NCBI RefSeq assembly: GCF_004153455.1
Contig: NZ_SDQE01000002.1
Location: forward strand, 310,001-374,000
Origin: Allopusillimonas ginsengisoli
Lineage (GTDB): Bacteria; Pseudomonadota; Gammaproteobacteria; Burkholderiales; Burkholderiaceae_B
Length of the DNA: 64,000 bases
Direction of reading: 5' to 3'
Part shown: positions 19,932 through 39,949 of the stretch, in pieces
Layout of the letters: each line of letters opens with the position of its first letter
How positions within the stretch are numbered: the stretch's first letter is position 1
Position numbers and translations under genes: made by a program
The notes under the pieces: model-generated
The model's input: the letters and a program-made list of their open reading frames with translations, nothing else
Told to the model about the DNA's origin: nothing
Databases searched by the model: none

Positions 19932-20018
19932 ATGTCCCCCAGCAGGCGTTTTAAAGCATTTTATGCTGAAAACCACCGCCAGGCTCCGCAAATTCGAAAG
20001 CACATTCGTCTGACTTGA

Positions 20019-22754
20019 ATGCAGAATGATGAATACCCCTTTTTGATGAATCTCCTGAGTCAGGTGCCTGCCATGCTGATGAATACCAGTGGCCACGATA
20101 GCCCCGCCATCGATATCGATCCCGAAGAAACCGTTGAGTGGCGCGATGCATTTTTGTCGCTGCTTGATGCCAGTGGGCCGCAGCGTGCCGTGTTTTTGCT
20201 GGAAGAACTGCAGCGACTGGCACGAGACGCTCAAGTGGGTTGGCGCCCTACAGGGCAAACCGCCCATGTCAACACCGTCGCCGCAGATCAGCAGCCGGAT
20301 TTCCCAGGCGATCTCAACATCGAACAACGCCTGGGCGCCATGATGCGCTGGAACGCCCTGGCCATGGTGGTTCGCGCCAACGCTGCCTATGGTGAGCTCG
20401 GCGGCCATATTGCCAGTTACGCCAGCGCTGCAGATCTGTTCGAGGTTGGATTCAACCACTTTTTTCATGGCCGCAATGACGAAACCGGGCACCGGGGCGA
20501 TCTGGTGTTCTTTCAGCCGCACAGCGCGCCAGGGGTGTACGCGCGCGCCTACCTGGAAGGTCGCCTCGATGAAAATGATCTCGCCCACTATCGCCAGGAA
20601 CTGCGCGGCCCCCGCAATGGCGCGCGAGGCCTGTCCAGCTACCCGCATCCTTATTTGATGCCCGACTTCTGGCAGTTCCCTACGGGCTCCATGGGGATAG
20701 GCCCCATCAGCTCCATCTATCATGCCCGCTTCATGCGCTATCTGACCCATCGCCAACTGCTGGACTGCACTGGCCGTAAAGTATGGGGCGTCTTTGGCGA
20801 TGGCGAGATGGATGAACCGGAATCCATGAGCGCACTCACGCTGGCAGCACGTGAAGGCCTGGACAACCTCGTTTGGGTCGTGAACTGTAATCTGCAACGA
20901 TTGGATGGGCCAGTACGCGGCAACGGCTGCATCATCACCGAACTCGAAAAACTGTTCACCGGCGCGGGCTGGAATGTGGTCAAGCTGCTGTGGGGCAGCG
21001 ACTGGGATGGCCTGTTTGCCCGCGACCTGAGCGGATCGCTGGTGCACGCGCTCTCGCAGACTGTCGATGGCCAGATGCAGACCTTTGCTGCCAAGGACGG
21101 TCAATACAATCGAGAACATTTTTTTGGCCAGAACGAGGCGCTGACCCGCCTGGTGCAAGGTCTGACCGATGAGCAGATCGACCAGCTGCGCCGAGGCGGC
21201 CACGATCTGGTCAAAATCTATGCCGCGTATGCGCTGGCGGCCCGCCATACCGGCCAGCCGACAGTCATCCTGGCTCATACGAAGAAAGGCTTTGGCATGG
21301 GCAGCGCGGGCCAGGGCCGCATGACCACGCACTCGCACAAAAAATTTGAAGAACAGGATCTGATCGGTTTTCGTGATCGGTTCGCACTACCGCTGGACGA
21401 TGAGCAAGTGCGTCAGGTTGGTTTTTACAAACCTGATGAAGACAGCGCTGAGCTGCGCTATCTTCATGCCCGCCGCAAGGCGCTCGGGGGCTATCTTCCC
21501 GCGCGGCGCACCGATGCCGCACCTGTTCCCGTTCCCGAACTTGCCAGCTATGCGCGCTTTGCGACCGAGTCGGATGGCCGCGCAATGTCCACCACCATGG
21601 CATTTGTGCGCATGCTCGGCACCCTGCTGCGCGACAAACAGCTTGGACAGCGCATAGTACCCATCGTCGCCGACGAGGCTCGCACGTTCGGCATGGCCAA
21701 CCTGTTTAAACAAGTAGGTATCTACTCCAGCGTTGGGCAACGTTACGAGCCCGAAGACATCGGCTCGATGCTGACCTACCGTGAAGCACTCGATGGTCAG
21801 ATCCTGGAAGAAGGCATCAGCGAGGCCGGCGCCATCTCCAGCTGGGTGGCGGCGGCGACCAGCTATAGCGTACACGGCACCACCATGCTGCCCTTCTATG
21901 TGTATTACTCCATGTTTGGTTTTCAGCGCGTGGGCGACCTGATCTGGGCCGCCGCCGACCAGCGGCCGCGTGGCTTCCTGATTGGCGCGACCTCGGGACG
22001 CACAACGCTGGGGGGAGAAGGCCTGCAGCATCAGGACGGCAGCAGCCATCTGTCTGCGGCCACCATACCCAACTGCAAGGCCTACGATCCAGCCTTCGCC
22101 GGCGAACTGGCCGTGATTATTGACCATGGCATGCGCGAGATGGTGGAGGAACAGCGCGATGTTTTCTACTACATCACGGTGATGAACGAAAACTATGCTC
22201 AGCCTGCCCTGCCCGAAGCTGTACACAAGCAAGTTCTGCAAGGCGCTTATGTTCATGCCAGATTTGACGTGATGGCGGGGCACAAGGCAGACGAGCGGCC
22301 AGCCGCCATCGACCAGCACGGTGCCAAGTTACGTGTCACATTGATGGGATCCGGCGCCATTCTGGGTGAAGTGATCAAGGCCGCCGAAGAACTGGCACAG
22401 CACGGCATTGCCAGTGACGTTGTGAGCGTTACCAGCTGGAGCGAGCTTGCGCGGAACGGCCGGCGAAGCGAAGAACAAACCCTGCGCGGGGAACCCGCCG
22501 AGCAGCCTTATCTTGCGCAACTGCTCGAGGGCTGCTCTGGCCCCATCATCGCCGCCACGGATTATGTCCGTCTGGTCCCTGAATCGGTGCGCGCCTATCT
22601 GCCGTCGGACCGACGCTACGTGACGTTGGGAACCGACGGTTTTGGACGCAGCGACACCCGAAGCGAGCTGCGGCGGTTCTTTGGCGTGGATGCACAGAAT
22701 ATCGTGGATGTTGCTGGCCGGCTGCTCGATCAGAATCAGCCAGCGCGGGGATAG
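20019..22754 (+). CDS. Homodimeric E1 2-oxoacid dehydrogenase (AceE/MdeB-like paralogue)
   Basis: 911 residues, related along its length to the homodimeric pyruvate dehydrogenase E1. The thiamine diphosphate motif G-D-G-E-M-D-E-P-E-S at 260-269 ends with N-C-N-L-Q-R-L-D-G-P. The E1 signatures R-G-L-S-S-Y-P-H-P and T-K-K-G-F-G-M-G-S-A are also present. There are no E2/E3 genes alongside, as expected of a paralogue rather than the housekeeping aceE. With a divergent Lrp-type gene it resembles P. putida mdeB, whose product acts on 2-oxobutyrate from methionine, but no mdeA-like lyase gene is present. ATGs at 20046, 20073 and 20079 are alternative starts. Confidence 0.9.
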   Translation: MQNDEYPFLMNLLSQVPAMLMNTSGHDSPAIDIDPEETVEWRDAFLSLLDASGPQRAVFLLEELQRLARDAQVGWRPTGQTAHVNTVAADQQPDFPGDLNIEQRLGAMMRWNALAMVVRANAAYGELGGHIASYASAADLFEVGFNHFFHGRNDETGHRGDLVFFQPHSAPGVYARAYLEGRLDENDLAHYRQELRGPRNGARGLSSYPHPYLMPDFWQFPTGSMGIGPISSIYHARFMRYLTHRQLLDCTGRKVWGVFGDGEMDEPESMSALTLAAREGLDNLVWVVNCNLQRLDGPVRGNGCIITELEKLFTGAGWNVVKLLWGSDWDGLFARDLSGSLVHALSQTVDGQMQTFAAKDGQYNREHFFGQNEALTRLVQGLTDEQIDQLRRGGHDLVKIYAAYALAARHTGQPTVILAHTKKGFGMGSAGQGRMTTHSHKKFEEQDLIGFRDRFALPLDDEQVRQVGFYKPDEDSAELRYLHARRKALGGYLPARRTDAAPVPVPELASYARFATESDGRAMSTTMAFVRMLGTLLRDKQLGQRIVPIVADEARTFGMANLFKQVGIYSSVGQRYEPEDIGSMLTYREALDGQILEEGISEAGAISSWVAAATSYSVHGTTMLPFYVYYSMFGFQRVGDLIWAAADQRPRGFLIGATSGRTTLGGEGLQHQDGSSHLSAATIPNCKAYDPAFAGELAVIIDHGMREMVEEQRDVFYYITVMNENYAQPALPEAVHKQVLQGAYVHARFDVMAGHKADERPAAIDQHGAKLRVTLMGSGAILGEVIKAAEELAQHGIASDVVSVTSWSELARNGRRSEEQTLRGEPAEQPYLAQLLEGCSGPIIAATDYVRLVPESVRAYLPSDRRYVTLGTDGFGRSDTRSELRRFFGVDAQNIVDVAGRLLDQNQPARG

Positions 22755-26351: not shown

Positions 26352-27035
26352 TTAACGTATTTTGAACCGCTTAACGGCGTCTGTCAGCGAGCCCCCGCCT
26401 TTCATATAGGTCTGCATTTTTTCCTCGCTCTCGATTAAAAGCCGGGCCTTGAGCGCTATCTCTTCGGCCGCGTGCTCTGGAATCAAGAGTACACCATCAG
26501 CGTCCCCCGCGATGATATCGCCAGGCTTGATCAGCACCCCGCCACAGACCACCGGACCGTTTTTAACGGTAGTGGCAAAACGATGCTGGCCAGCCCTTGG
26601 TGAAGTGCATTTTGCAAATACCGTCATGCCATAACCTTGCATTTCATTCAGATCACGTATGGCGCCATCTGTCACTATGCCCAGAATGCCAACTTTGCTG
26701 GCGCGCAGGGCTTGGTTGCCACCCCAGTTCGCGTGAGAGGCAATGCCCTGAACGGCAGTGACCAGAATAGAGTCTTTTCCAGCGCTATCAATCACCTCTT
26801 GAATCGCGAGCGTCATCGACGCATCTAGCGATTCCTGCGTCGCATTGGGCGGCATTGGAATGCGTCCAATAGTGATGGCGCGTCCAAGTATGGTTTCACC
26901 CGCCAATAGGCGAATGGAAGGATCCAGTGTCGTATCATCGAGTCCAAGGCCGAACATCGCGTCCGACAACACCGACGAAGACAATCCTCTCAACGCAACA
27001 AGTACACTGTCGTCTGAAGTTTTCTGCGTGGTCAT
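26352..27035 (-). CDS. RraA-fold aldolase/decarboxylase-like protein (paralogue 1)
   Basis: 227 residues from ATG 27035; an in-frame upstream start gives 13 more residues but lacks a better ribosome site. The RraA/HMG-aldolase fold is shown by G-I-V-T-D-G-A-I-R-D (Arg-Asp pair for substrate and metal) and P-G-D-I-I-A-G-D-A-D-G-V-L-L-I-P. Family members split 4-hydroxy-4-methyl-2-oxoglutarate-type compounds or decarboxylate oxaloacetate with Mg. It is the last of ten same-strand genes, 45 bp after the LysR gene. It has an atypical N-A-N-W-G-G-N-like segment (H-A-N-W-G-G-N-Q) ahead of the motif. Substrate unknown. Confidence 0.85.
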   Translation of the reverse strand: MTTQKTSDDSVLVALRGLSSSVLSDAMFGLGLDDTTLDPSIRLLAGETILGRAITIGRIPMPPNATQESLDASMTLAIQEVIDSAGKDSILVTAVQGIASHANWGGNQALRASKVGILGIVTDGAIRDLNEMQGYGMTVFAKCTSPRAGQHRFATTVKNGPVVCGGVLIKPGDIIAGDADGVLLIPEHAAEEIALKARLLIESEEKMQTYMKGGGSLTDAVKRFKIR

Positions 27036-27080
27036 TGTCTCTCTCCTAAGGCGGTATTCCTGACAACCGGGCACACGATG

Positions 27081-27983
27081 TCAGGGCGCCAACACTTGGC
27101 GCTTGTGGCTAAAATTGCAACTCGCAGAAGCGAGCTGCGCGATTCTGTCGCTGATCTTGTCGGCACGATAAATAGCGTAATAATCCATCTTCGGCATAGG
27201 GAAGTCCGTTTTGATAGCGCGTAGCCCCCGTCTGCAGAAATAGGCCGAAAAGTAAGCCTTAGGCAGGTATGCCACACCCAAACCGGCACGCGCCAACTCA
27301 GCCATCGCGATCATGCTGCCGCAAAACAATTTGTCCTTAGGCGCTGCGCCACCTGTCAGGAAAGAGTCCTTTAATGTCTTGTGGAGCATTGAGCCATCAG
27401 AATGCGATAGCAATGGGAAGCTCGCGATCTCTGCCATCGAATAGATTTTTCGGGGTGACACCAGCAGCTCACTACGTATCGCCCAGGTGAGTTCAAGCGT
27501 GCTAAGAAAGCTCGTCGCAATATGGGAATCCATATCCTCCATTAAGGGAGAGATGACGAAATCCAGCTCATTGGAAGCGATCTGCTGACAAAGCGTGCGG
27601 GCCATGTCGACCCTGGATTCGAGGATCATCTTCGGATAGTCTTTTTTGATCAACGCAATCAGGTCGGGCAACCAGGTAAGTGCCACCATTTCGGTCACCC
27701 CCAGCCTGAAGAACCCGGAATACGAGCCAGGGTCCTGCGTGCGTGCCACCACGTCCTGGCGAATATCCAGCATGCGGGTAAAAGCATCCAACAAGCTACG
27801 GCCTTCGACCGTCAACCTGGTTCGATTCTGACGATCAAAGATGTCGATACCGAGGAAGTCCTCCAGATCAATGATCCGTTTTGAGATAGTTGATTGCGTT
27901 GCGTGCAGTTTCTCTGCCGCCGCCGAGAAGCCGCCTAGCGTATGCACCCAATAGACCGCCTCGATCTGCTTAAAGGTTGGCAT
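27081..27983 (-). CDS. LysR-family transcriptional regulator of the catabolic array
   Basis: 300 residues from ATG 27983, where the conserved HTH begins (M-P-T-F-K-Q-I-E-A-V-Y-W-V, then S-A-A-A-E-K-L-H-A-T-Q-S-T-I-S-K-R-I). The open frame extends 34 codons upstream into the oxidoreductase gene without LysR similarity. A C-terminal co-inducer domain (about 90-295) follows. Its start overlaps the oxidoreductase stop by 14 nt, so it is embedded in the operon rather than divergent, which is unusual for LysR regulators. It probably senses a pathway intermediate. Confidence 0.9.
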   Translation of the reverse strand: MPTFKQIEAVYWVHTLGGFSAAAEKLHATQSTISKRIIDLEDFLGIDIFDRQNRTRLTVEGRSLLDAFTRMLDIRQDVVARTQDPGSYSGFFRLGVTEMVALTWLPDLIALIKKDYPKMILESRVDMARTLCQQIASNELDFVISPLMEDMDSHIATSFLSTLELTWAIRSELLVSPRKIYSMAEIASFPLLSHSDGSMLHKTLKDSFLTGGAAPKDKLFCGSMIAMAELARAGLGVAYLPKAYFSAYFCRRGLRAIKTDFPMPKMDYYAIYRADKISDRIAQLASASCNFSHKRQVLAP

Positions 27984-28968
27984 CTGATGAGACCGAGATA
28001 ACAACCTTGCCGTGCGCCTGACCCGACTCCAAATGTGAATGTGCCTGTGGCGCAGTTTGCAGGGTGAATTCTGTCTGATCGACAATCGGCTTTAACCCGC
28101 CGGCCTCGACAAGCCTGGCAATCCTCGCCAATATCTCTCCATGTTGCTCCCTGTTTTTGTCGTGCAGCATGGGTATCAGCATAAAAATAACATTCAGCGT
28201 CAGTGCTTTCGCGTGCATAGGGGACAAGTCGTGGGTACTACGCGCGGCAATAGCACTGACCCGTCCATTCAATCCCGCAGCTTGTAGCGACCTGTCGAGA
28301 TTCTCGCCCCCTACTGTGTCGATGACGACGTCAAAACCACGACCTTCCGTATACTTTTCGACGTAATCCTCTACGCTTTCCTTGCCTGCATCGATAATGC
28401 CATCAATGCCAAAACTGCGCAGCAACGCGTCATCGCGATGACGCGACACCGTCACGAACACCCGTGCACCACGCTGCACTGCCAGCTGGGCGGCAATGTG
28501 CCCAACGCCACCCATGCCGCCGTGCACCAGTACCGCCTCACCCTTTTTCACATGAGCGCGCTCTATAGCCTCCCAAGCAGTAATGGCAACCAGAGGCATA
28601 GCGGCAGCCTCTCTCATTGAAAGATTTACCGGCTTTTTTGCGATAAGCTGCGCATCTGCCAACACATACTCGGCCAATGCACCACCCATACCCTTCACAC
28701 CGGCAACACAGCCATAAACCGCATCACCTACTTCAAATCCGGTAACACCCTCGCCAATTTTCGTGATAGTTCCTGCCGCATCGCAGCCTATGGGCCCAGG
28801 CAGCGCCGGCGAAATCGGCAATCCATTTCTAATCTTGATATCAACCTGGTTGACGGATGTCGCAGCAACCTTAATCAACACATATCCACGCTTGATTTCA
28901 GGCATTGGTATATCCTGAAGCTCAAACTGATCAACGTTACCGTGCTGCTTCAGCATGAGAGCTTGCAT
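27970..28968 (-). CDS. Zinc-independent MDR alcohol dehydrogenase / quinone reductase-like
   Basis: 332 residues of the medium-chain dehydrogenase/reductase superfamily. A GroES-like N-terminal domain (K-R-G-Y-V-L-I-K-V-A-A-T-S-V-N) and Rossmann motif V-H-G-G-M-G-G-V-G-H-I-A (about 150-161) are visible. The Cys/His zinc ligands of true alcohol dehydrogenases are not evident, which fits the NADPH:quinone reductase group. In context it may reduce or oxidise an intermediate of the array. It is 74 bp after the NAD(P)-dependent dehydrogenase gene. Confidence 0.87.
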   Translation of the reverse strand: MQALMLKQHGNVDQFELQDIPMPEIKRGYVLIKVAATSVNQVDIKIRNGLPISPALPGPIGCDAAGTITKIGEGVTGFEVGDAVYGCVAGVKGMGGALAEYVLADAQLIAKKPVNLSMREAAAMPLVAITAWEAIERAHVKKGEAVLVHGGMGGVGHIAAQLAVQRGARVFVTVSRHRDDALLRSFGIDGIIDAGKESVEDYVEKYTEGRGFDVVIDTVGGENLDRSLQAAGLNGRVSAIAARSTHDLSPMHAKALTLNVIFMLIPMLHDKNREQHGEILARIARLVEAGGLKPIVDQTEFTLQTAPQAHSHLESGQAHGKVVISVSSDANL

Positions 28969-29042
28969 GTCGAGTACCTCCGATTTTGATAACTAGCAAA
29001 TTTATATAACGGGCGCGATCGTTCGACACTAACCTTGTGTAC

Positions 29043-29918
29043 TTACAGGCGTCGCGCCAGTATATCCAGCGCAGCCTCTAACGAAGTCGGCACAACATTA
29101 GCGGCAGCCGCAGGCACCCCTGCCTCGACGCTGCGCCGAAAAACATCACATGCCGCTCTCGCCATGCTAGGCTCAATCCCCGCAGAGGCGATCGCCGACG
29201 CCGACATGCCAATCTCGTGCAATCGCCGTTCGGCGTGCACTACATGAGTGGTTACCAGCAGCTCCGCCATCTCCTTCGCAGGACGCGCATCCAGCATCTG
29301 ACAAAAGGAATTCAGCACTTCATCCCGTATATCAAAACGCTGCGCTGCGACTAGCGCTTCTACGTATAATGCTTCCAGCCCCTTTGCCAGAACGCTGCGC
29401 ACAATCTTGATGGCGGATGCTTGGCCGGGCGAGTCACCTACACAGCGCGTATTCAATCCTAGGGCGTTGATCTGTTGAGATATGCGATCTGCGTCTATAC
29501 CTGAGAGCACGATGGGCACCCTTATGCCATCCTGCGCGGGCCCTAATACCGCACCATCAATAAAATGACGTTGCGCGGCGACAAGCACTTCACTGTTGCG
29601 TATTTTTTCATCGCGGCCCATTGAATTCAGATCAAGGAATACCGCAGAGGTCTGAATCCGCGTGCAAGCCAATTCCGCCGCCGCCAGGGAGTGCTGAGGC
29701 TGAACTGTCGAAAAAACAAAGGCGGCATCGCCCAAGCCCGAATCTGCGTCTTGTAAATCGATTCCTGCCTTCTGAGCCGCCTCTTTTCGATCCAAAGAGA
29801 GATAAGGATCGATACCCACTACTCTCGCATCGCCTCTTCCAGCAATCCCTTTTGCCAGCGAAAATCCCAACTGGCCCAATCCAATGAATGCAACACAAAT
29901 ATCTGATGCCGTTGTCAT
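29043..29918 (-). CDS. NAD(P)-dependent 3-hydroxyisobutyrate dehydrogenase-like oxidoreductase
   Basis: 291 residues from ATG 29918; an in-frame GTG at 29930 overlaps the upstream gene. The N-terminal Rossmann motif is F-I-G-L-G-Q-L-G-F-S-L-A-K-G-I-A. A conserved Lys is plausible in S-A-I-K-I-V-R-S-V-L-A-K-G. The C-terminal helical domain resembles the DUF1932 type found in 6-phosphogluconate/beta-hydroxyacid dehydrogenases. It is 5 bp after an RraA-type gene and would oxidise a hydroxy acid made or used by this pathway. Substrate not known. Confidence 0.83.
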   Translation of the reverse strand: MTTASDICVAFIGLGQLGFSLAKGIAGRGDARVVGIDPYLSLDRKEAAQKAGIDLQDADSGLGDAAFVFSTVQPQHSLAAAELACTRIQTSAVFLDLNSMGRDEKIRNSEVLVAAQRHFIDGAVLGPAQDGIRVPIVLSGIDADRISQQINALGLNTRCVGDSPGQASAIKIVRSVLAKGLEALYVEALVAAQRFDIRDEVLNSFCQMLDARPAKEMAELLVTTHVVHAERRLHEIGMSASAIASAGIEPSMARAACDVFRRSVEAGVPAAAANVVPTSLEAALDILARRL

Positions 29919-29923
29919 GTTTG

Positions 29924-30709
29924 CTACCACTTGTGGGAAGGAACGATCTTGACCACATCACTGGGGGAGTCTCCACGGGCGATGGCATCGATAAGCAGTC
30001 CTTCTGAGGACGCAGCCGCTTCGGCGCGATTGATGACTGTCTCTGCGAGCGCTATGGGTACCACCACGATCCCATCGTCATCTGCGAGGATAAGGTCACC
30101 CGGACGAATCTGCACACCCGCAATGTGCACAGCGCCGTTGAAATCGGCGAGCTCAAGCCGATGCTTGCCGGTACGCGGCGTAATGCCGCGGGACCATACG
30201 CGCAGACCCAGCTTACGCATATTGGCGACGTCCCGCACATTGCCCTCCACGACCAGGCCAGCCAAACCAGCGGCCGCAACGCTCGTTGCCATGATGCCGC
30301 CAAAGCTAGACACGGCCTGATCACAATTACTTTCAATGACCAGGACATCGCCTGCTTGGCTCAACGTAACAATATCGCTGCCACCCAAGGCTGCACTGGG
30401 CTGCTGGTGAGCAATATTGAATCCACTCGCAATCCGGGCCGGTACATAACGCACAGTAACGGCGCTTCCCACCATTTTCCCGCCAGACCGGGAGCAGATT
30501 TCATGCCCCGGAATGGCGCTGTCAATCCCAAGTTCATCCAAAATATCGGCCACAGTAGAAGTAACGTCTTCCAATGCTTCGTAGCGCTTGATGAGGGCGG
30601 GGTCCACGCGCTCAATCTTCACTTTGCGGATTTTTTCTGGCGAAATCAAACCAAGCAATTTATCCGCATACTCCGCCAACTCATTTGCTGTTTCTTGCGT
30701 GGCCTTCAT
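29924..30709 (-). CDS. RraA-fold aldolase/decarboxylase-like protein (paralogue 2)
   Basis: 261 residues from ATG 30709, 4 bp after the Bug gene stop. An N-terminal helical extension of about 35 residues precedes the RraA domain (V-T-S-T-V-A-D-I-L-D-E-L-G). Active-site pair in V-E-G-N-V-R-D-V, and P-G-D-L-I-L-A-D-D-D-G-I-V-V-V-P later. In place of the usual first glycines it has S-F-G-G-I-M-A-T-S. The family suggests Mg-dependent retro-aldol or decarboxylation of a 2-oxo diacid. Tight spacing on both sides ties it to a Bug protein and a dehydrogenase. Confidence 0.85.
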   Translation of the reverse strand: MKATQETANELAEYADKLLGLISPEKIRKVKIERVDPALIKRYEALEDVTSTVADILDELGIDSAIPGHEICSRSGGKMVGSAVTVRYVPARIASGFNIAHQQPSAALGGSDIVTLSQAGDVLVIESNCDQAVSSFGGIMATSVAAAGLAGLVVEGNVRDVANMRKLGLRVWSRGITPRTGKHRLELADFNGAVHIAGVQIRPGDLILADDDGIVVVPIALAETVINRAEAAASSEGLLIDAIARGDSPSDVVKIVPSHKW

Positions 30710-30713
30710 ATCA

Positions 30714-31688
30714 CTATTGCTCCTTGATCCCAGCAGCCTTTGCCACCTTCTTCCATGTTTCAATCTCGCGTTTCAACGCACTCCTGAATTCTGCGGGTGT
30801 ACTACCTACGGCACCAATGCTTACTTGTTTCAGTTTCTTCTTGAAAGCATCGTCGTTACTCAGGCGTACAATATCCTGACCCAAGGCATCCACAATTTCC
30901 GGATTTGTACCTTTGGGCAAAAATACCCCGAGCCACCAACCCATATCCAGCCCTTTTACGCCATTTTCTTCAAGGGTTGGAATATCCGGAGCCAGTTCGG
31001 TACGTTCTTCGCCCAGCATTCCCATACTCGTCAGTTTCTTTGCTTCAATGTACTGAAGAGAAGGTCCCAATGTTAGAAAAGCAACATCAATCCGACCCGC
31101 CAACAGGTCCATCAAAATAGGATTCTGACCTTTATAAGGCACATGCAGAAGACGCGTGCCAGTCAGTGATTGAAACAATTCCGCCGTCAACTGGTGCGGC
31201 GAACCAGTGCCGGAAGAACCATATTTCAACGTGCCAGGTTCCTTTTTGGCCAACGCAATGAACTCAGATATATTGGCTACAGGCAAGCCGCCATTGACGA
31301 CCATCACAACCGGCAAAGTAGCCGCCATACTCACCGGCTCAAAATCGCGAAAAACGTCATAATTAACTTGGTTCGGCAGTGTAAGATTAGTGACCATGCT
31401 ATTCGATACAACGAGTACGGTGTGTCCATCAGGCTTTGCCTGAGCCACTTCACGTATACCGATGCTACCACTGGCTCCAGGTCGATTTTCGACGATGAAT
31501 GTCTGCCCAGTCTTTTCCTGAAGCGCCTGAGACAATATGCGCGCAAACGAATCGTTGCTACTGCCGGGCGGAAACGGCACGACCAGCTTCACAGTACTTT
31601 GTGGCCACTGAGCCGACTGCGCTCCGGCCGATACCAGCATAGACAAGCCAAACACCGGAATGCACAATCGCGTCATCCATTTTTTCAT
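30714..31688 (-). CDS. Bug-family (TctC-like) periplasmic binding protein
   Basis: 324 residues. A signal peptide (about 1-25) is followed by P-V-K-L-V-V-P-F-P-P-G-S-S-N-D-like and the Bug signatures I-V-E-N-R-P-G-A-S-G-S-I-G, Y-G-S-S-G-T-G-S-P-H-Q-L-T-A-E-L-F and V-P-Y-K-G. Bug proteins bind carboxylates or related small molecules in Alcaligenaceae, usually without a dedicated TctAB permease. It follows a second Bug gene by 21 bp. Likely delivers or senses the substrate of this array. Confidence 0.92.
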   Translation of the reverse strand: MKKWMTRLCIPVFGLSMLVSAGAQSAQWPQSTVKLVVPFPPGSSNDSFARILSQALQEKTGQTFIVENRPGASGSIGIREVAQAKPDGHTVLVVSNSMVTNLTLPNQVNYDVFRDFEPVSMAATLPVVMVVNGGLPVANISEFIALAKKEPGTLKYGSSGTGSPHQLTAELFQSLTGTRLLHVPYKGQNPILMDLLAGRIDVAFLTLGPSLQYIEAKKLTSMGMLGEERTELAPDIPTLEENGVKGLDMGWWLGVFLPKGTNPEIVDALGQDIVRLSNDDAFKKKLKQVSIGAVGSTPAEFRSALKREIETWKKVAKAAGIKEQ

Positions 31689-31709
31689 GATGGGTCTCCT
31701 CCCTCACGA

Positions 31710-32711
31710 TTACCTAACGGGACCGGCCACTTTGACTTTTTTCAAACCGGCGGCTTCTACTACATCTGCCCACTTCTTTAATTCTGCACTCACAAACCTG
31801 CCAAGCGACTCAGGATTAGAATCGACGACCGGTTCAAATCCGATATCAAGCATCTTGCGGGCCAGCTCTGGATCACGAACAGTCGCCTGGAAGGCCTTGA
31901 GCAAAGCGGCAACTACCGAATCCGGGGTTCCTGCCGGAGAAAAAATCGCACTCCAAGAGTTGGCCTGGACGTCGTAACCCTGCTCCTTAAGTGTCGGCAG
32001 ATCCGTCGCACCGGAAAAGCGCTCTGCACTTGCTACGCCGAATATCTTAAGCGTGCCGTCGGCCACATGCGCATTGGTCGCAGCGAAGGTATCGAACATA
32101 AAACTGGTTCGCCCGGCAACAAGGTCGACCATCGCGGGCCCGGAGCCTTTGTAAGGGACGTGCAACGCGTCAACCTGCGCCACCTTCTTGAATAGTTCAC
32201 CAGCCAGATGCAAAGGCCCGCCTATACCAGATGACGCATAGGCATACTTGCCCGGATGCTGCTTGAGCAACGCGATGAACTCTTCCAGGCTATCCACTGG
32301 AAGCTTTGCATTAGTCACAAGTACCAAAGGCACGTTGGCAATCTGGCACACTGGCACGAAGTCCTTCTCCGCGTCGTACGGCATACTTTCTGCCAACGCC
32401 TGATCCATGCCATGGGTCGCTGCCGTGCCCAGCAATAACGTATAGCCGTCGGGGGCAGCATTCTTCACATGTGACGCTCCTACGATTCCGGAAGCCCCCG
32501 CCCTGTTCTCCAGAATTACTGTTTCCCCCAGGTGCTTGTTTAAAATGGGGCCGGCATGCCTCATGAAGATATCCTGCCCGCCTCCTGCAGCGAATGGGAT
32601 TATCAGCCTTAATGGACGCACCGGATACTTTCCAGCGGCCGTCGCAAAAGATGGAGCCATTCCGAAGGCGAGCATCATCGAGAGGATTTGCCGACGTGAC
32701 AAGGTATTCAT
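31710..32711 (-). CDS. Bug-family (TctC-like) periplasmic binding protein
   Basis: 333 residues from ATG 32711 (M-N-T-L-S-R-R-Q-I-L), which gives a Tat-like signal (S-R-R-Q) and cleavage near A-T-A-A-G. Bug motifs: L-I-I-P-F-A-A-G-G-G-Q-D, I-L-E-N-R-A-G-A-S-G-I-V-G, Y-A-S-S-G-I-G-G-P and V-P-Y-K-G-S-G-P-A-M. It is distinct in sequence from the adjacent Bug protein, so two binding proteins of different specificity may serve one pathway. Confidence 0.92.
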   Translation of the reverse strand: MNTLSRRQILSMMLAFGMAPSFATAAGKYPVRPLRLIIPFAAGGGQDIFMRHAGPILNKHLGETVILENRAGASGIVGASHVKNAAPDGYTLLLGTAATHGMDQALAESMPYDAEKDFVPVCQIANVPLVLVTNAKLPVDSLEEFIALLKQHPGKYAYASSGIGGPLHLAGELFKKVAQVDALHVPYKGSGPAMVDLVAGRTSFMFDTFAATNAHVADGTLKIFGVASAERFSGATDLPTLKEQGYDVQANSWSAIFSPAGTPDSVVAALLKAFQATVRDPELARKMLDIGFEPVVDSNPESLGRFVSAELKKWADVVEAAGLKKVKVAGPVR

Positions 32712-32740
32712 GTTGTCTCCAGAATATGAAGCGATCGCGT

Positions 32741-33139
32741 TCAAGGTTGGTACGCCTCATCAATGGGAACGCGATAGCCTGCCACCAGACGGTTTGTCTC
32801 ATTGGCCATACCGACAATTGCCATCATCTCGGCGAACATCTCATCAGTCATGCCCGCCTTGTATGCGGCGGCAGTATGGCTTGCCACGCAATAAGGGCAA
32901 TTGTTTGAGACACTCACTGCCAGATAGATGATTTCTTTAACCGCAGGGCTCAACGCTCCGTCCGGGGCCATTATTTCCTTGATGCTTGACCATGTACGGG
33001 CCAGCGTTTTGGGATCGTTAGCCAGATACTTCCAAAAATTGTTGAGCTTATCTATTTTTCTGGTTTGCATAATGTCATCAAATACCTGCCGCACCTGAGG
33101 GGACGCGTGTTCATATTCGATGGGGGACGTCATCGCCAT
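32741..33139 (-). CDS. Carboxymuconolactone decarboxylase/AhpD-like protein
   Basis: 132 residues. The CMD fold with a redox-type C-x-x-C at 81-84 (N-N-C-P-Y-C-V-A-S-H) and H88 is as in AhpD-like peroxidase partners. True carboxymuconolactone decarboxylases lack this Cys pair, so a thiol or disulphide role is more likely than lactone decarboxylation. It is co-transcribed with the RraA and Bug genes (41 and 29 bp gaps). Confidence 0.87.
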   Translation of the reverse strand: MAMTSPIEYEHASPQVRQVFDDIMQTRKIDKLNNFWKYLANDPKTLARTWSSIKEIMAPDGALSPAVKEIIYLAVSVSNNCPYCVASHTAAAYKAGMTDEMFAEMMAIVGMANETNRLVAGYRVPIDEAYQP

Positions 33140-33180
33140 GATTCTCTCCTTTTACTGAAAATCAAACCCTGCCAGTGCAA

Positions 33181-33852
33181 TCAAATATCAAGCCGGATTC
33201 CCTTGGCTTTCACCAATGCATCCAGGTTCAACATGTCCCATGTAGTCTTTCCGGTGATAAGTGCTTCGCGAAAACGTACTTCTTTCTCTTCACGCGTTTT
33301 GCAAATCTCCGCCAAAGACTCGATTTCGTCTTTAGGGACCACCACGACGCCATCATCATCACCAATGATCAGGTCTCCTGGATGCACAGTCACGCCACCC
33401 ACGGCAACAGGCTGGTTCAATGTTCCAAATGTTTCCTTGACCGTGCCCTTCACACTGATTGAGCGCGAGAAAACCGGGAAGCCAATTTTATGGATCGTCG
33501 AAGAATCCCGTACGCCACCGTCCACGACAAGACCAACGATTTGACGTCCCACCGCGCAACTCGCCATCACATCTCCAAACAGGCCCTGCTCTGTGAATCC
33601 GCCCGCATCGCAGACAATGACATCACCCGGCTGAGCAAGTTTCAAAGCGGCGTGCAGAGTGAGGTTATCGCCAGGATGGCATTGACAGGTATAGGCTCGG
33701 CCCAATATCGTCATGCCCTGCCTTATGGGCTTTATGGCGGAATCCATTGCCCCTCGCCTGCCCATACCTTCGTGTGCCGTCGCTGCGGTCACTCCCTCAT
33801 ACATGGTGATATCTTGCGCAGGTGCGCCTCGTTCTGCTTGTGCTACTGGCAT
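33181..33852 (-). CDS. RraA-fold aldolase/decarboxylase-like protein (paralogue 3)
   Basis: 223 residues from ATG 33852, picked for its AAGGAGACTGAG ribosome site. Closest of the three to classical HMG/CHA aldolases: H-E-G-M-G-R-R-G-A-M, P-G-D-V-I-V-C-D-A-G-G, V-D-G-G-V-R-D-S and P-G-D-L-I-I-G-D-D-D-G-V-V-V-V-P. Such enzymes form pyruvate from 4-carboxy-4-hydroxy-2-oxoadipate or HMG. It is second in the operon, 32 bp after the enolase-superfamily gene. Confidence 0.88.
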   Translation of the reverse strand: MPVAQAERGAPAQDITMYEGVTAATAHEGMGRRGAMDSAIKPIRQGMTILGRAYTCQCHPGDNLTLHAALKLAQPGDVIVCDAGGFTEQGLFGDVMASCAVGRQIVGLVVDGGVRDSSTIHKIGFPVFSRSISVKGTVKETFGTLNQPVAVGGVTVHPGDLIIGDDDGVVVVPKDEIESLAEICKTREEKEVRFREALITGKTTWDMLNLDALVKAKGIRLDI

Positions 33853-33884
33853 CTCAGTCTCCTTGACTAATAATTGGTAATCAC

Positions 33885-35075
33885 TTATCGGGTAACGTTT
33901 GCCATTCCCCAGACATAGTTTTTGCGGGGAAACTCTTCCCAATATTGGCGCATACCCTTGCTGGGAAAGGCCTTGTAGGGGCGCCGTCTCATCACCTCGA
34001 CATCCATGTCCACGCCCAGTCCAGGCGCTGTAGGAATATCCATCCAGCCATCCTTTATTTCAATCCGATTCACCGCGATATCATTACAGGCGTCCTGCAG
34101 GTTGATAAAGCATTCCGCGATCACGAAATTCGAAATCATTGCCGAATAATGGATGGTGGCCGCCAGCCCAACGATGGTGCTGTTGTAGTTATGGGGACTG
34201 ATGGCAACCGCATGCGGATGGGCCATCGCTGCGATGTCCAGCATCTGCAAGATGCCCCCTACAGCACAAATATCCGGATTCAGAATATCGGCCGCTCTCG
34301 CGGCAAGTACTTCGCTGAACTGTTCCTTGGTGTAGAGTGTTTCGCCTGTTACCACCGGCGTGTTTATTTTTGTGCGCACCTCTGCTACCAGTGCTATGTT
34401 GTCCGAAAGGCAGGGTTCTTCGAAGCAGAAGATATCGAACTCTTCTAAACGTCTTGCAACTCGTATAGAGTGATACGGCGCTACTCGACGGTGCGCATCG
34501 ATAAGCAAGTCCATGTCTGGACCTAAGGCCTTACGAACTTGCCGAACACACTCAACCGCATGATCTTCTTCCTGCCGGGAAACAAATGTTCGCCACGGCC
34601 CAGGAAAAGGATCCCATTTGAGCGCCGTGTAGCCCATTTCCTTTACCTCTACAGCTCGTTGCACGATTTCGTCAATCGTTCCTGCCCCATACCACCAGCC
34701 ATTGGCATAAACCCGCACCTGCTCACGTGATGCGCCGCCAAGCAAATTGTGAACAGGCTGCCCTGTCGCTTTGCCAACGATGTCCCACAATGCAATTTCA
34801 ATGGCGCTCCATGCACACAGGAAATCCACTGATGTACGCCGGATAGCGAAGTCATCGAACATAATCTGACCGAGGTGGCGTATGTTGAACGGCGAGCGAC
34901 CGACAATATAGGGAGCCATCGCCCGCAGGTATTCATCCACTATCTTTTCTTTGTTTACGCCTACATATGACTCACCCCAGCCATAGTGTCCATCGTCAGT
35001 TTCAACGCGGCAAAACAACAAGTTCTTGCCGCTTCCCGGATAGAAAAGAAAAGTTTCTATATGAGCTATCTTCAC
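33885..35075 (-). CDS. Mandelate racemase/enolase-superfamily acid-sugar dehydratase-like
   Basis: 396 residues. An N-terminal capping domain (1-125) precedes a TIM barrel with metal ligands D193 (L-I-D-A-H), E219 (F-E-E-P) and E245 (T-G-E-T). H195 two residues after the first ligand and H295 (S-P-H-N-Y-N) match the acid/base pair of D-galactonate-dehydratase-type enzymes; K153-W-D155 is on the opposite face. It probably removes water from an aldonic or related hydroxy acid to give a 2-oxo acid, feeding the RraA aldolases. First gene of the array, so the promoter lies in 35076-35484. Substrate is inferred only by class. Confidence 0.88.
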   Translation of the reverse strand: MKIAHIETFLFYPGSGKNLLFCRVETDDGHYGWGESYVGVNKEKIVDEYLRAMAPYIVGRSPFNIRHLGQIMFDDFAIRRTSVDFLCAWSAIEIALWDIVGKATGQPVHNLLGGASREQVRVYANGWWYGAGTIDEIVQRAVEVKEMGYTALKWDPFPGPWRTFVSRQEEDHAVECVRQVRKALGPDMDLLIDAHRRVAPYHSIRVARRLEEFDIFCFEEPCLSDNIALVAEVRTKINTPVVTGETLYTKEQFSEVLAARAADILNPDICAVGGILQMLDIAAMAHPHAVAISPHNYNSTIVGLAATIHYSAMISNFVIAECFINLQDACNDIAVNRIEIKDGWMDIPTAPGLGVDMDVEVMRRRPYKAFPSKGMRQYWEEFPRKNYVWGMANVTR

Positions 35076-35484: not shown

Positions 35485-36489
35485 ATGAGAAACATCTTCC
35501 GAAATAATTGGCGCCCTTTCGCCTTCACATTGGCCGTAGGAATGCTGTCTGCTGCAGCACCGGCCTGTGCCAGTTCATCGACCTGGCCCGCTTCGGGCAA
35601 ACCCATCACAATCGTCGCGCCCTTCAGCGCGGGGTCAGGCGCTGATGGGCTCGTGCGCAGGCTGGCACAACAAGTGAACAAGGAAACCGGGGTTCCCGTC
35701 ATTGTCGAAAACAAGCCCGGGGCGAGCACGACCATCGGCGCTGATGCGGTGGCCAGAGCCAAGCCGGATGGATATACGCTGCTCTACACCTACGTCCTGA
35801 CACATGCCCAGAATCCCCATCTTTTCAAAAAACTGCCCTACGACGCATTCAAGGATTTCACCCCCATTCTGAAAGTCGTCGACTCTGCGACCATTCTGGC
35901 CGTGAACAAAGACGCTCCGTTCGACTCCATGCAGGCGCTCATCGAATACGCACGGCAGCATCCCGGTGAACTCAATTACGGCTCATACAACGTAGGGTCG
36001 ACAGCACACCTGAACTCGGAAATACTTTTGCGCAATACCGGAATCGATGCCGTCCATATTCCCTACAAGGGCTCTGCCGACGCCCTGATAGGCCTGCTTG
36101 CAGGGGATATCCATTTCGGTTTCGTGGACACGGCAACAGCCGTGAATCAGGCGAGAGCAGGAAAGCTGAAACTCTTTGGCACCGCCACAGACAAACGTTT
36201 GGCGGTTCTCCCGGACTTGCCCACCCTGGCGGAGCAGGGCATTGAGGGTCTGGACATAGTGGGATGGCAAGCCATCTTCGCGCCAGGCAATGTGCCAGAT
36301 GAATTAGCCGAGCAAATCGCCGGCGTGTTTCGCCACGCGCTGTCCGACCCTGAAATTGTGAAGAGCTTTGAATCCCAAGGCGTTCAAGTCAGCGGAGCAG
36401 GCCCCAAGGAGTTTGCCAGTATCGTGCGTCGGGACTATGAACACTGGGGGCAGATCATCAAGGCGCTTGATCTGAAACTCGATCAATAG
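35485..36489 (+). CDS. Bug-family (TctC-like) periplasmic binding protein
   Basis: 334 residues. Signal peptide 1-32 or so (cleavage after A-C-A). Bug motifs: I-T-I-V-A-P-F-S-A-G-S-G-A-D, I-V-E-N-K-P-G-A-S-T-T-I-G, Y-G-S-Y-N-V-G-S-T-A-H-L-N and I-P-Y-K-G-S-A-D-A-L. GGAG precedes the ATG. It is convergent with the LysR gene 51 bp downstream and may belong with the amidohydrolase locus. Ligand unknown. Confidence 0.92.
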   Translation: MRNIFRNNWRPFAFTLAVGMLSAAAPACASSSTWPASGKPITIVAPFSAGSGADGLVRRLAQQVNKETGVPVIVENKPGASTTIGADAVARAKPDGYTLLYTYVLTHAQNPHLFKKLPYDAFKDFTPILKVVDSATILAVNKDAPFDSMQALIEYARQHPGELNYGSYNVGSTAHLNSEILLRNTGIDAVHIPYKGSADALIGLLAGDIHFGFVDTATAVNQARAGKLKLFGTATDKRLAVLPDLPTLAEQGIEGLDIVGWQAIFAPGNVPDELAEQIAGVFRHALSDPEIVKSFESQGVQVSGAGPKEFASIVRRDYEHWGQIIKALDLKLDQ

Positions 36490-36540
36490 GGATTGAGCCA
36501 GCGGGCGGGCTGGATGTGCGTGCGCCAGCCTCGCCTTGCG

Positions 36541-37467
36541 CTATTTTTTTACGGCCGCGCCCTCGCTCATCAATGCTTCTACCATGCTGATCACCTGTAC
36601 GGCAGCGGGCGACAGTGTGCGTCCGGCATGGTGAATAATGCTGCAGGTAAGTTCTGTTTGATTGGAATAGAAAATGGGCAGCTGGATCAGGCTACCGTCT
36701 TCGAGTTCCCCGCGAATCGATTCTCGCATGCACAGAAAAATGACATCGCTGCCCAGCGCGACGGCGCGCAACGCGGCAACACTGTTGCACTCCAGCGCCA
36801 TGGGAAGGTCATCGACACTGGTCAGCCTGTACAGCGCTGCCAGATGATCCCGTGTTCGAGGCGGCAAGGGCGTGGCCGCCAAACGATAATTCATCAGAGC
36901 GGACCGCAACGCACTTCGGCCTTGAATCGCCAGCAACGGATGCCCTGCGCGGACAAACAGGCCGGCATGCTGGGGCGGCAAGGGACGTACCGTGAACTCT
37001 GCTGAAGGAGGCAGGCTGTGGGTGACCGCTACAACGAAATCCAGCCTGTCTTGCGCAAGCATCTCCACCAGACTGGCCCAGCCTTCTATTTCTACACGCA
37101 TGCTGATGCCAGGGTAATCCTGCGCCAATTGTGTCAGCAGAGGCGACAGAAAACCCGCGGCCGGAAACACCCCCGCCCCCATGGCGACCTCGCCGCTGGC
37201 CAGGCCCCGGATCAGTTCCGTTTCACGTTTGAGCGCCGCCGCTTCGGCCAGCACCCGGTGCGCGTGCGCCAGAACGCTGCGGCCAGGTTTGGTGAGGCGA
37301 ATACCGGCTGCGCTGCGGTCCAGCAATTTCAGGCCAAGGGTTTCTTCCAGCGACTGGATACTGCGGGTCAGCGCGGATTGCGTCAGATGCAATTTTGCCG
37401 CGGCGCGAGAATAGTGACGCTCCTCAGCCAGCGTGGAAAAGTGTTTTAAGGCGCGCAAACTAAGCAT
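36541..37467 (-). CDS. LysR-family transcriptional regulator
   Basis: 308 residues. Classical LysR N-terminus M-L-S-L-R-A-L-K-H-F-S-T-L-A-E, HTH S-R-A-A-A-K-L-H-L-T-Q-S-A-L-T-R-S-I and a co-inducer domain from about 90. It is divergent from the amidohydrolase gene (162 bp apart), the usual layout for a LysR protein controlling its neighbour and itself. The AT-rich gap near 37470-37500 (TTTATCATTAATTTATC) is the likely binding region. Confidence 0.92.
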   Translation of the reverse strand: MLSLRALKHFSTLAEERHYSRAAAKLHLTQSALTRSIQSLEETLGLKLLDRSAAGIRLTKPGRSVLAHAHRVLAEAAALKRETELIRGLASGEVAMGAGVFPAAGFLSPLLTQLAQDYPGISMRVEIEGWASLVEMLAQDRLDFVVAVTHSLPPSAEFTVRPLPPQHAGLFVRAGHPLLAIQGRSALRSALMNYRLAATPLPPRTRDHLAALYRLTSVDDLPMALECNSVAALRAVALGSDVIFLCMRESIRGELEDGSLIQLPIFYSNQTELTCSIIHHAGRTLSPAAVQVISMVEALMSEGAAVKK

Positions 37468-37629
37468 AATGAGTTTTTATCATTAATTTATCCAACAGTA
37501 TGCATTTGATTCAAACCAACCGCAAGCCTAAGATTTATCGATCGAAGGCGGATTTCAGAGGCCGGCAACCCAAATGACCCGGCATCAGCTACCCGCAAAA
37601 TTCATCAGTGACATCAGGAGAGAGACAAC

Positions 37630-39348
37630 ATGTACGACTTGGTAATCCGGCGCGGCACGATTGTCGATGGCAGCGGGCAGCCTGCATTCTGTGGAGACCT
37701 TGCCATCAGCGCGGGGAAGATTGTTCAGGCAGGTGGCAAGGCAGGCGCCGGGCGGCGCGAAATAGATGCGGATGGATGTCTGGTGACGCCGGGGTGGGTC
37801 GATATTCACACTCACTACGATGGCCAGGCCACGTGGGATCCTTACCTCAGCCCTTCCACCTGGCATGGCGTGACGACAGCGATCATGGGCAACTGTGGCG
37901 TAGGCTTTGCCCCGGTGCGCCAGGATCGACGCGATTGGTTGATCAAGGTCATGGAAGGCGTGGAAGACATACCAGGCTCGGTGCTGTCCGAAGGCATCGA
38001 ATGGGAGTGGGAAACCTTCCCCGAATACCTGGACGCCCTGGCACGTAAGCCCAAAGCCTTGGATATCGGCGCCCAATTGCCGCATTCTGCCTTGCGCGCC
38101 TATGTCATGGGCGATCGGGCCATACATCATGACGAAGCCGCCCCCCAGGACTTGCAGGACATGCGCAATCTTTTACGCCAGGCAATGGATGCCGGGGCAA
38201 TGGGCTTTTCCACTTCAAAGACATTTCTGCACAAGTATGACGAGCGCAAGTATCCTCCCGGCACTTTTGCCACGGAAGAGGAACTGATGTCCCTGGGTAC
38301 CGTGCTGGGCGAGGCAGGCCACGGTGTGTTCCAGATGACTGCCAACCACCCTGCGATGGAACAGGAAATGCCCTGGCTCGGTGCTCTGGCGCGGCACAAC
38401 GACTTGCCCGTTCTATTCAACCTGCAGCAGACCGATGATGCGCCGGATGTTTGGCGCCAGCTTATGGACCAACTGGAACAAGCCCGCCAGCAGAACATCC
38501 CCTTACTGGGCGGCATCAGCGGCAGACCGCTGGGCATACTTTTCTCATGGCAAAGCAGCTTGCATCCTTTCGTCGCGCACCCGACCTTCAAGGTGCTGCA
38601 AACCCTGCCATTCGACGAGATGATTGCGCAGTTGCGCGACCCGGACGTACGCCGCAAACTGATGGGTGAAAACGCTGGCCTGCTCGACCGGCGCGCCACA
38701 ACGTTATTCAGCAGCTTTCACAAGATCTTCCCGCTGGGCGACGAGCCGGACTATGAGCCGCGAGAGGAAAACAGCGTGGCCGCGATGGCAGCGCGCACAG
38801 GCCGGCAGCCCCTGGACATCGTCTACGATCTGATGCTGGAGAAGGAAGGCAAAGCATTCTTGTACTACCCGTCCTTCAATTACGCCTATGGGCATCTGAA
38901 TCATGTGCACGAAATGCTCCAGCACGACAATACGGTGAACAGCTTGTCGGACGGCGGCGCCCATTGCGGTTACATCTGCGACGTCAGTTTACCCACCTTC
39001 ATGCTCAGCTACTGGACCCGTGATCGCAAGCGTGGCGATACATTGCCCTTGGAACGCGTGGTAAAGCGCCAGACTGCTGATACCGCGCGCGTGTATGGCC
39101 TGCACGATCGAGGCACGCTGATGCCGGGATTCAAGGCGGATATCAATGTGATCGACCCCGCCATGCTCAAGCTGCATGGACCGGAGATGGTATTTGATCT
39201 GCCGGCAGGCGGGCGTAGATTAGTACAGCGTGCAGACGGCTATGTCGCGACGCTGGTCAACGGAGAGCCCATTTTCGAACATGGCCAGTCGACCGGATCA
39301 CTGCCAGGTCGGTTGCTGCGTAGCCGCAAAGGAGGCATCCATGCGTGA
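37630..39348 (+). CDS. D-aminoacylase-type amidohydrolase (N-acyl-D-amino-acid deacylase family)
   Basis: 572 residues. The amidohydrolase start D-L-V-I-R-R-G-T-I-V-D-G-S-G, metal motif D-I-H-T-H at 59-62 with H60 and H62, and the family-specific Cys ligand C89 (M-G-N-C-G-V-G) mark the D-aminoacylase/D-glutamate deacylase group. A later L-S-D-G-G-A-H region supplies the catalytic Asp. It is somewhat longer than typical D-aminoacylases (about 480), like the group often annotated as D-aminoacylase domain proteins. GGAG precedes the ATG. Likely hydrolyses an N-acyl amino acid or cyclic amide; actual substrate unknown. Confidence 0.87.
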   Translation: MYDLVIRRGTIVDGSGQPAFCGDLAISAGKIVQAGGKAGAGRREIDADGCLVTPGWVDIHTHYDGQATWDPYLSPSTWHGVTTAIMGNCGVGFAPVRQDRRDWLIKVMEGVEDIPGSVLSEGIEWEWETFPEYLDALARKPKALDIGAQLPHSALRAYVMGDRAIHHDEAAPQDLQDMRNLLRQAMDAGAMGFSTSKTFLHKYDERKYPPGTFATEEELMSLGTVLGEAGHGVFQMTANHPAMEQEMPWLGALARHNDLPVLFNLQQTDDAPDVWRQLMDQLEQARQQNIPLLGGISGRPLGILFSWQSSLHPFVAHPTFKVLQTLPFDEMIAQLRDPDVRRKLMGENAGLLDRRATTLFSSFHKIFPLGDEPDYEPREENSVAAMAARTGRQPLDIVYDLMLEKEGKAFLYYPSFNYAYGHLNHVHEMLQHDNTVNSLSDGGAHCGYICDVSLPTFMLSYWTRDRKRGDTLPLERVVKRQTADTARVYGLHDRGTLMPGFKADINVIDPAMLKLHGPEMVFDLPAGGRRLVQRADGYVATLVNGEPIFEHGQSTGSLPGRLLRSRKGGIHA

Positions 39349-39949
39349 TTCTGTATCATCCAGCGCTATGACAGATCAACATATAGACCAGCTTTTCCTA
39401 CAAGCCCGCACCCACAGTGCCTGGCTGGACCAGCCCGTGGCTCCTCAGCTGCTGCAGAAACTGTATGCCATGACCGCCATGGGGCCGACCTCAGCCAACT
39501 GCTCGCCTTTGCGCGTGATATTTGTGTGCAGCCCACAGGCAAAGGAGCGGCTGTTGCCACACATGGCAGCCGGCAACCGCGAAAAAACCCGCCAGGCACC
39601 GGTAACCGCCATTCTGGCCTACGACCTGGACTTCCCTGAGCAACTGGCCACGCTTTACCCTCATGAGCCGTCGGCGCCATCCTGGTTCACCAGCAGCGCC
39701 GACGCCACCCGAATCGCGGCGCTACGCAACGGCAGCCTTCAAGGCGGTTATTTCATTCTGGCCGCACGCAGCCTTGGCCTAGATTGCGGGCCCATGGGCG
39801 GGTTTGACGCAGAGGCCGTGGCACAGGCGTTTTTCCCGGATCGGCCGTATGAGGTGAATTTTCTTTGTAATCTGGGTTACGGCGACGATCAGGCGTTGCA
39901 TCCGCGTCTTCCACGCTTGAGCTTCGAAACCGCATGTGAGGTAGTTTGA
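39341..39949 (+). CDS. Nitroreductase-family protein, RutE/malonic semialdehyde reductase-like
   Basis: 202 residues from ATG 39341, preceded by AAAGGAGG; it overlaps the amidohydrolase stop by 8 nt, so it is translationally coupled. The FMN-dependent nitroreductase fold shows A-M-G-P-T-S-A-N-C-S-P-L-R, N-G-S-L-Q-G-G-Y-F-I-L-A-A-R and G-L-D-C-G-P-M-G-G-F-D, as in RutE, which reduces 3-oxopropanoate (malonic semialdehyde). Linkage to an amidohydrolase parallels the logic of pyrimidine-ring or amide breakdown, but no other rut genes are here. Confidence 0.87.
   Translation: MRDSVSSSAMTDQHIDQLFLQARTHSAWLDQPVAPQLLQKLYAMTAMGPTSANCSPLRVIFVCSPQAKERLLPHMAAGNREKTRQAPVTAILAYDLDFPEQLATLYPHEPSAPSWFTSSADATRIAALRNGSLQGGYFILAARSLGLDCGPMGGFDAEAVAQAFFPDRPYEVNFLCNLGYGDDQALHPRLPRLSFETACEVV

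Follow-up and report, generated by a model that had tools for sequence, protein, structure and literature searches.

What do ten adjoining genes that include three RraA-family proteins, two Bug solute-binding proteins and an enolase-superfamily dehydratase do together in Allopusillimonas ginsengisoli? The genes occupy positions 26352-35075, on the minus strand, of the 64,000-nucleotide stretch of contig NZ_SDQE01000002.1 that was analysed here as a whole (the window). The original prediction had read them as a complete route of uptake, dehydration, aldol cleavage and oxidation for a hydroxylated or branched carboxylic acid. We found that the cluster is real, conserved and built from known enzyme families, that it is undescribed as far as our searches go, and that what sets it apart is the consistent deployment of several RraA clades alongside a single dehydratase. 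Judging from sequence, we consider it rather likely that the cluster is a patchily distributed catabolic unit for a hydroxylated carboxylic acid, either sugar-acid-like or branched, and such an organic acid would probably be broken down to pyruvate.

The ten open reading frames that take up this stretch, all on one strand, match the families that had been named for them (Pfam and NCBIfam; the latter lacks a model for both Bug proteins, whose assignment is that of Pfam). The first on the coding strand encodes the mandelate-racemase-like dehydratase of the enolase superfamily, DHT (33885-35075, GTG start; PF13378 203 bits, PF02746 58 bits). It is followed by RraA1, a LigK/HMG-CHA-aldolase-like RraA protein (33181-33852, with an ATG at 33852; NF006731 214.8 bits for a cut-off of 179; the query used in some scans was five residues longer than this ATG-started protein), by CMD, a protein of the AhpD/carboxymuconolactone-decarboxylase family (32741-33139; PF02627 66.4 bits, TIGR00778 AhpD core 54.5 for a cut-off of 27.8), and by two TctC-family solute-binding proteins, Bug1 (31710-32711; PF03401 217.7 bits) and Bug2 (30714-31688; PF03401 208.3 bits). 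Then come RraA2, an RraA-fold protein of a separate clade with Gly at position 102 (29924-30709; PF03737 116 bits), and a DUF1932-type NAD(P)-binding dehydrogenase that resembles 6PGDH and beta-hydroxyacid dehydrogenases (29043-29930; PF09130 44.1 bits). The last three are QOR, a PIG3-type NAD(P)H:quinone oxidoreductase (27970-28968; PF13602, PF00107 and PF08240; TIGR02824 208.7 bits, below the cut-off of 296.8), a LysR-type regulator, embedded in the run as claimed (27081-27983, start chosen at 27983; PF00126, PF03466), and RraA3, an RraA-fold protein of a third clade, also with Gly at 102 (26352-27035; PF03737 104.9 bits).

Measured from the chosen starts, the junctions from DHT to RraA3 are 32, 41, 29, 21, 4, -7, 74, -14 and 45 bp. 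The predicted spacing of 4-74 bp was nearly right, except that two junctions overlap. A terminator scan returned 5 sites, fewer than in shuffled sequence (mean 8.9); two of these were on the coding strand, both weak and both within the DUF1932 gene, and none was found on that strand in the intergenic gaps. The ten-gene stretch has a GC content of 52.9%, compared with 58.2% in the remaining window, and among 111 equally long windows the minimum, 52.6%, is that of the one starting at 26501. The low GC suggests acquisition, without proving it. The host genome (4.5 Mb, 33 contigs) carries six PF03737 (RraA-family) genes, three of them within the cluster.

All ten genes were found on one strand in three further genomes, those of Alcaligenes endophyticus, Alcaligenaceae bacterium CGII-56 and a Burkholderiales metagenome-assembled genome (MAG; L036). 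Recurring there in orders unlike that of the window, the ten-gene grouping is not due to chance. In each of the four loci DHT, RraA1, CMD and Bug1 are kept together, and QOR is next to LysR. Among 150 genomes, the window's own included, DHT copies were 74% identical in two others (A. endophyticus and CGII-56) and 45-50% identical in eight more; DHT was present in one of four other genomes examined from the genus. No DHT copy above 50% identity was detected in 398 other genomes of the order or in 397 of the phylum, and the cluster is therefore rare and patchily distributed. A search of genome contigs with RraA2 as sole query gave no match.

DHT is also linked with RraA genes in Bosea, Mesorhizobium, Shinella, Azospirillum, Pseudothauera and Clostridia. 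The named-genome scan comprised 45 loci. We compared a high-identity set of 20 distinct loci, in which DHT is at least 53% identical (8 alphaproteobacterial, 4 betaproteobacterial and 8 Clostridial; L018 and L019, the same places as L035 and L033, were left out), with a low-identity set of 33 loci in which DHT is below 50% (11 at 45-49%, 22 at 28-35%). Sequences of the window and of the L033 and L035 genomes served as seeds for the RraA, DUF1932 and CMD profiles, so that these two loci match by construction; one MAG is the source of both L043 and L046, L053 closely resembles L043, and loci cut by contig ends include L037, L042, L057, L059 and L064. An RraA gene lies near DHT in 20/20 high-identity loci and in 0/33 low-identity loci (Fisher P 5e-15, kinship ignored). 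The corresponding figures are 17/20 and 0/33 for the DUF1932 dehydrogenase, and 6/20 and 0/33 for a strictly defined CMD protein. In 18 of the 20 the nearest same-strand RraA gene is within 142 bp of DHT, and RraA2-clade genes occur in 11 of the 12 proteobacterial loci, the exception being the end-truncated L037. The co-occurrence search that had been proposed thus shows that these families recur together.

A second, later set was compared as well. It comprised all 4 new genomes with DHT at 59% or above and, from the 14 new ones at 46-50%, the 11 that remain without G187, G410 and G455; RraA was found near DHT in 4/4 of the former (L105, L106, L112 and L113) and 0/11 of the latter, which range from 47 to 50%, and DUF1932 in 3/4 and 0/11 respectively. 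On plasmids, DHT and RraA2 were present in the identical 7 of 72,556 records (Shinella 4, Azospirillum 3) at limits that we chose (E up to 1e-100 for DHT and 1e-40 for RraA2); the Azospirillum TSH58 record is the same place as L113 (G1477) of the second set. Three RraA paralogues in one operon had been called unusual. At least two RraA genes are present in 17/20 high-identity loci, at least three in 7 and four in 2, and a Mesorhizobium MAG has a separate triple; several RraA proteins are usual in this cluster family, and three are less odd than had been held.

Other genes were seen repeatedly near DHT. A molybdopterin oxidoreductase is encoded nearby in five alphaproteobacterial loci (L031, L032, L034, L037 and L121), four of which also have an FAD-linked oxidase. 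A Dabb (stress-responsive A/B barrel) gene lies near the DHT-RraA-DUF1932 genes of five Clostridial loci (L043, L044, L048, L049 and L053), an assignment confirmed by Pfam for L043.

The three RraA proteins, placed in this family by sequence, all carry the R-D pair and PGDxxxxDxDG motif noted earlier, and the phylogeny suggested earlier separates them into three distinct clades. Twenty RraA1 rows group with the HMG/CHA aldolase 3NOJ (support 99/92), 3NOJ being among the rows that drew long-branch warnings, with the three other RraA proteins of the host genome and two Clostridial rows. RraA2 falls in a clade of 12 rows (100/99) and RraA3 in one of 6 (95/91). A recent tandem duplication was rejected as their origin: the orthologues of RraA2 and RraA3 share 23-29% identity with RraA1 and form separate clades.

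Arg-123, Asp-124 and Glu-199 are given as metal and enolate residues of the HMG/CHA aldolase in the available part of its description (PMC5065237). In the alignment, from which all residue counts at positions 40, 102, 123, 124, 127 and 199 were taken, RraA1 has D102, R123, D124, E199 and R40 of 3NOJ, and each of the five is present in 20/20 rows of its clade. Asp-102 belongs with the metal and enolate residues of the aldolase as well. RraA2 and RraA3 retain the Arg-Asp pair and the metal Glu, whereas position 102 is Gly in 11/11 complete RraA2 rows and 6/6 RraA3 rows, and Arg-40 is missing from the rows of both clades, one RraA2 excepted. The prediction that all three proteins are aldolases is consequently not established for RraA2 and RraA3. 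The form G-x20-R-D-x2-E/D is said, from work of Mazurkewich in 2014, to support aldolase or oxaloacetate decarboxylase activity also. Its last position (127) is Glu in 5/6 RraA3 rows, whereas Glu or Asp occurs in 0/11 RraA2 rows, and for this reason RraA2 is the RraA protein most likely to have another activity.

DHT carries both MR_MLE domains, N- and C-terminal, and the metal and His residues expected of an enolase-superfamily acid-sugar dehydratase: D193, H195, E219/E220, E245 and H295 are invariant across DHT and its two closest orthologues. These are presumably the catalytic residues, with the Asp and the Glu residues binding metal and the two His completing the site. The DUF1932 protein has the PDB relatives 4ezb, 3qsg and 1i36, none of which has a named reaction, and it weakly matches NAD_binding_2 (20.8 bits, cut-off 21) and an L-threonate dehydrogenase model. 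The RraA2 and DUF1932 genes are at most 69 bp apart in 8 of the 11 loci in which tblastn found both, one of these (L049) being a weak RraA2 call.

The uptake genes vary more. Neither TctA nor TctB is encoded among the ten genes (Pfam), so that the membrane part is missing and the route cannot be called complete as predicted; nine TctA genes are present elsewhere in the host genome. TctA adjoins DHT in six other loci, a TRAP-type system adjoins five Clostridial loci (DctM confirmed by Pfam for L043; the label TAXI was given by eye), and ABC systems are present in others. Transporters thus differ by lineage and the enzymes are the more constant part of the cluster.

These data are compatible with the following scheme. 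Bug1 and Bug2 would bind the acid and deliver it to a permease of the TctAB type, whose genes would lie elsewhere in the genome, and DHT would remove water to give a 2-oxo-3-deoxy acid. RraA1, acting as a class II pyruvate aldolase, would split this product, releasing pyruvate and leaving a carbonyl fragment. This second fragment might then be oxidised or reduced, and cleaved or decarboxylated, by the products of the RraA2-DUF1932 gene pair, and RraA3 might carry out a third C-C cleavage, a decarboxylation or a tautomerisation. QOR and the AhpD-like protein would have accessory redox roles, LysR may sense the substrate or an intermediate, and in some Rhizobiales relatives an FAD-linked oxidase and a molybdopterin oxidoreductase would follow. 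Of the original prediction, a conserved unit for uptake and catabolism with a dehydratase and RraA-fold proteins at its core is supported. That the route is complete and that all three RraA proteins are aldolases is not established, and the predicted oxidation step would depend on the DUF1932 protein, a putative dehydrogenase that might work in either direction. Tentatively, and at somewhat less than an even chance, the observations may be read as an undescribed pathway that horizontal transfer would have carried through Alpha- and Betaproteobacteria and that would have a relative in Clostridia. In it, one dehydratase would be followed by two to four RraA-fold enzymes, each from its own clade and each taking in turn a different step as C-C lyase, decarboxylase or dehydratase, and RraA2 and RraA3 would represent new activities for the fold.

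A possible associate of the cluster is a second paralogue of AceE (pyruvate dehydrogenase E1), encoded at 20019-22754 on the plus strand (TIGR00759 1282.3 bits; the other AceE of the host genome, on contig C31, scores 1450.5 bits). A glutamate-type ABC operon lies between it and RraA3. It is 74% identical to the cluster-adjoining AceE of A. endophyticus and 69% to that of the Burkholderiales MAG, compared with 53% to the C31 copy. Of the four ten-gene loci, three are accompanied by a second AceE, which is an immediate neighbour in two of them and lies beyond the ABC operon in the window, an association that fits a pyruvate product without proving it and serves as supporting evidence only. An Lrp-type gene adjoins the second aceE in the window (19473-22754); in A. 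endophyticus a related Lrp (75%) and AceE are on opposite flanks of the cluster, which therefore has the same surroundings in both genomes but occupies another position within them.

Several observations weigh against a single pathway of this kind. No second AceE was found beside the CGII-56 cluster. No NCBIfam dehydratase model that matches DHT does so above its cut-off, those for D-galactonate dehydratase included (245.2 for a cut-off of 311, NF010624; 262.9 for 750, NF040790). The RraA2 and RraA3 clades are absent from all eight Clostridial loci, and in five of these (L043, L044, L046, L048 and L053) the RraA that adjoins DHT has Gly or Glu at 102, so that DHT is not always partnered by an aldolase of the RraA1 type. 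DUF1932 is missing from L040, L046 and L047, and L106 (DHT 64%) has one distant, opposite-strand RraA and no DUF1932. Finally, many loci are related and the counts are not independent events.

An aldarate (glucarate/galactarate-like) route is a special case of the scheme above with the substrate class named. DHT would form a keto-deoxy-aldarate, an RraA protein would either yield pyruvate and tartronate semialdehyde or act by dehydration and decarboxylation, and the DUF1932 protein would be a semialdehyde reductase. A precedent for the second variant is FlDet of Flavobacterium sp. UMI-01, described as an RraA-family KDGR dehydratase/decarboxylase that converts 2-keto-3-deoxy-hexarate; it shows that a protein of this family can be a dehydratase/decarboxylase, and its use of a 2-keto-3-deoxy acid during the catabolism of acid sugars parallels the role proposed here for an RraA protein (PMC8563752). 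Its gene adjoins an alginate lyase gene, and the available part of that paper mentions no DHT or DUF1932 partner (PMC8563752). The weak NAD_binding_2 and L-threonate dehydrogenase matches of the DUF1932 protein also agree with this route. However, DHT is far under the cut-offs for talarate/galactarate (151.5 of 500) and glucarate (38.6 of 828.7) dehydratases, and the aldehyde dehydrogenase needed for the FlDet variant is not among the ten genes (Pfam). The gud/gar pathways share the order dehydratase, pyruvate aldolase, dehydrogenase, but in the part of the source available their aldolases are GarL or the DapA-like GudL, the latter type being that of the known commensal route, and not RraA (PMC11775122). 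We regard an aldarate substrate as unlikely.

Quite unlikely, in our view, is that DHT and its adjoining RraA alone make up one pathway, RraA2 with DUF1932, RraA3, QOR and CMD serving other substrates and having been collected in a carboxylate island. DHT-RraA adjacency is indeed the most constant feature (18/20), and L046 and L047 have a single RraA and no DUF1932. Against such an island stand the RraA2 clade in all proteobacterial loci of the first set except the truncated one, the coinciding plasmid sets, and the ten genes being together in four genomes.

A place for the cluster at the end of an aromatic 4,5-cleavage (protocatechuate/gallate) pathway, where RraA1 would be the CHA aldolase, was rejected as very improbable. 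RraA1 resembles the LigK/GalC-family enzyme 3NOJ in fold family, in the E/D36 region and in R40, D102, R123, D124 and E199; it is nevertheless under the TIGR02798 LigK/PcmE cut-off (185.1 of 304.5), RraA2 and RraA3 differ by Gly-102, and aromatic-pathway neighbours are lacking: ring-cleavage dioxygenase, lactonase and hydratase are encoded neither among the ten genes (Pfam) nor among neighbour families common to at least three loci (10 proteins Pfam-checked). It is hardly credible that the RraA genes encode regulators of RNase E and not enzymes, as the family name and weak matches to the RraA regulator model might suggest, and this was rejected, since the scores (74.3, 55.2 and 47.0 bits) are all under the NF006875 cut-off of 136, the aldolase residues Arg-123, Asp-124 and Glu-199 are retained, and the genes travel with metabolic genes.

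A catabolic unit with several RraA clades also differs from the nearest systems found in the literature. In Agrobacterium sp. B1, covered by a paper on the DDVA genes of Paenibacillus sp. B2, a dehydratase gene is close to an RraA-type HMG aldolase gene, as here; the dehydratase is annotated as a mannonate dehydratase in a proposed lignin-fragment pathway, and the portion of the paper available mentions no DUF1932/Bug set (PMC12673573). The non-phosphorylative sugar-acid pathways proposed for SAR202 pair mandelate-racemase-family dehydratases with dehydrogenases and aldolases; the aldolase family is COG3836, and RraA is unmentioned in the text available (PMC10444878). Among the matches listed from the open-access literature, a scope that leaves out most subscription journals, no paper was recognised as describing the ten-gene set, in line with the earlier statement that no named pathway with it was known. 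Isosaccharinate was considered as a substrate, and no relevant paper was present among the best 10 of 934 literature matches. Three RraA types tied to one dehydratase provide a defined place to learn the roles of uncharacterised RraA clades, the cluster supplies DUF1932 dehydrogenases with a metabolic setting, and a DHT more than about 53% identical offers an easy way to recognise the cluster in genomes.

The separate RraA triple of the Mesorhizobium MAG (L097, 8953-11194, in G842 C63) is a different tandem array, with no DHT within the 19.5-kb stretch. By eye, pyruvate-dehydrogenase E2/E3-like genes precede it and an aminotransferase-like gene follows, beyond which are relatives of GltI/J/K (48-62%). 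In the window, the region past DHT (35485-39949) contains a third Bug gene on the plus strand, a further LysR gene on the minus strand, a malonic semialdehyde reductase RutE-family gene (NF003768 270.7, cut-off 152) and a gene that appears by eye to be amidohydrolase/D-aminoacylase-like, with no NCBIfam match at 1e-20. An ORF at 4758-5405 resembles, by eye, a fragment of an IS-type transposase.

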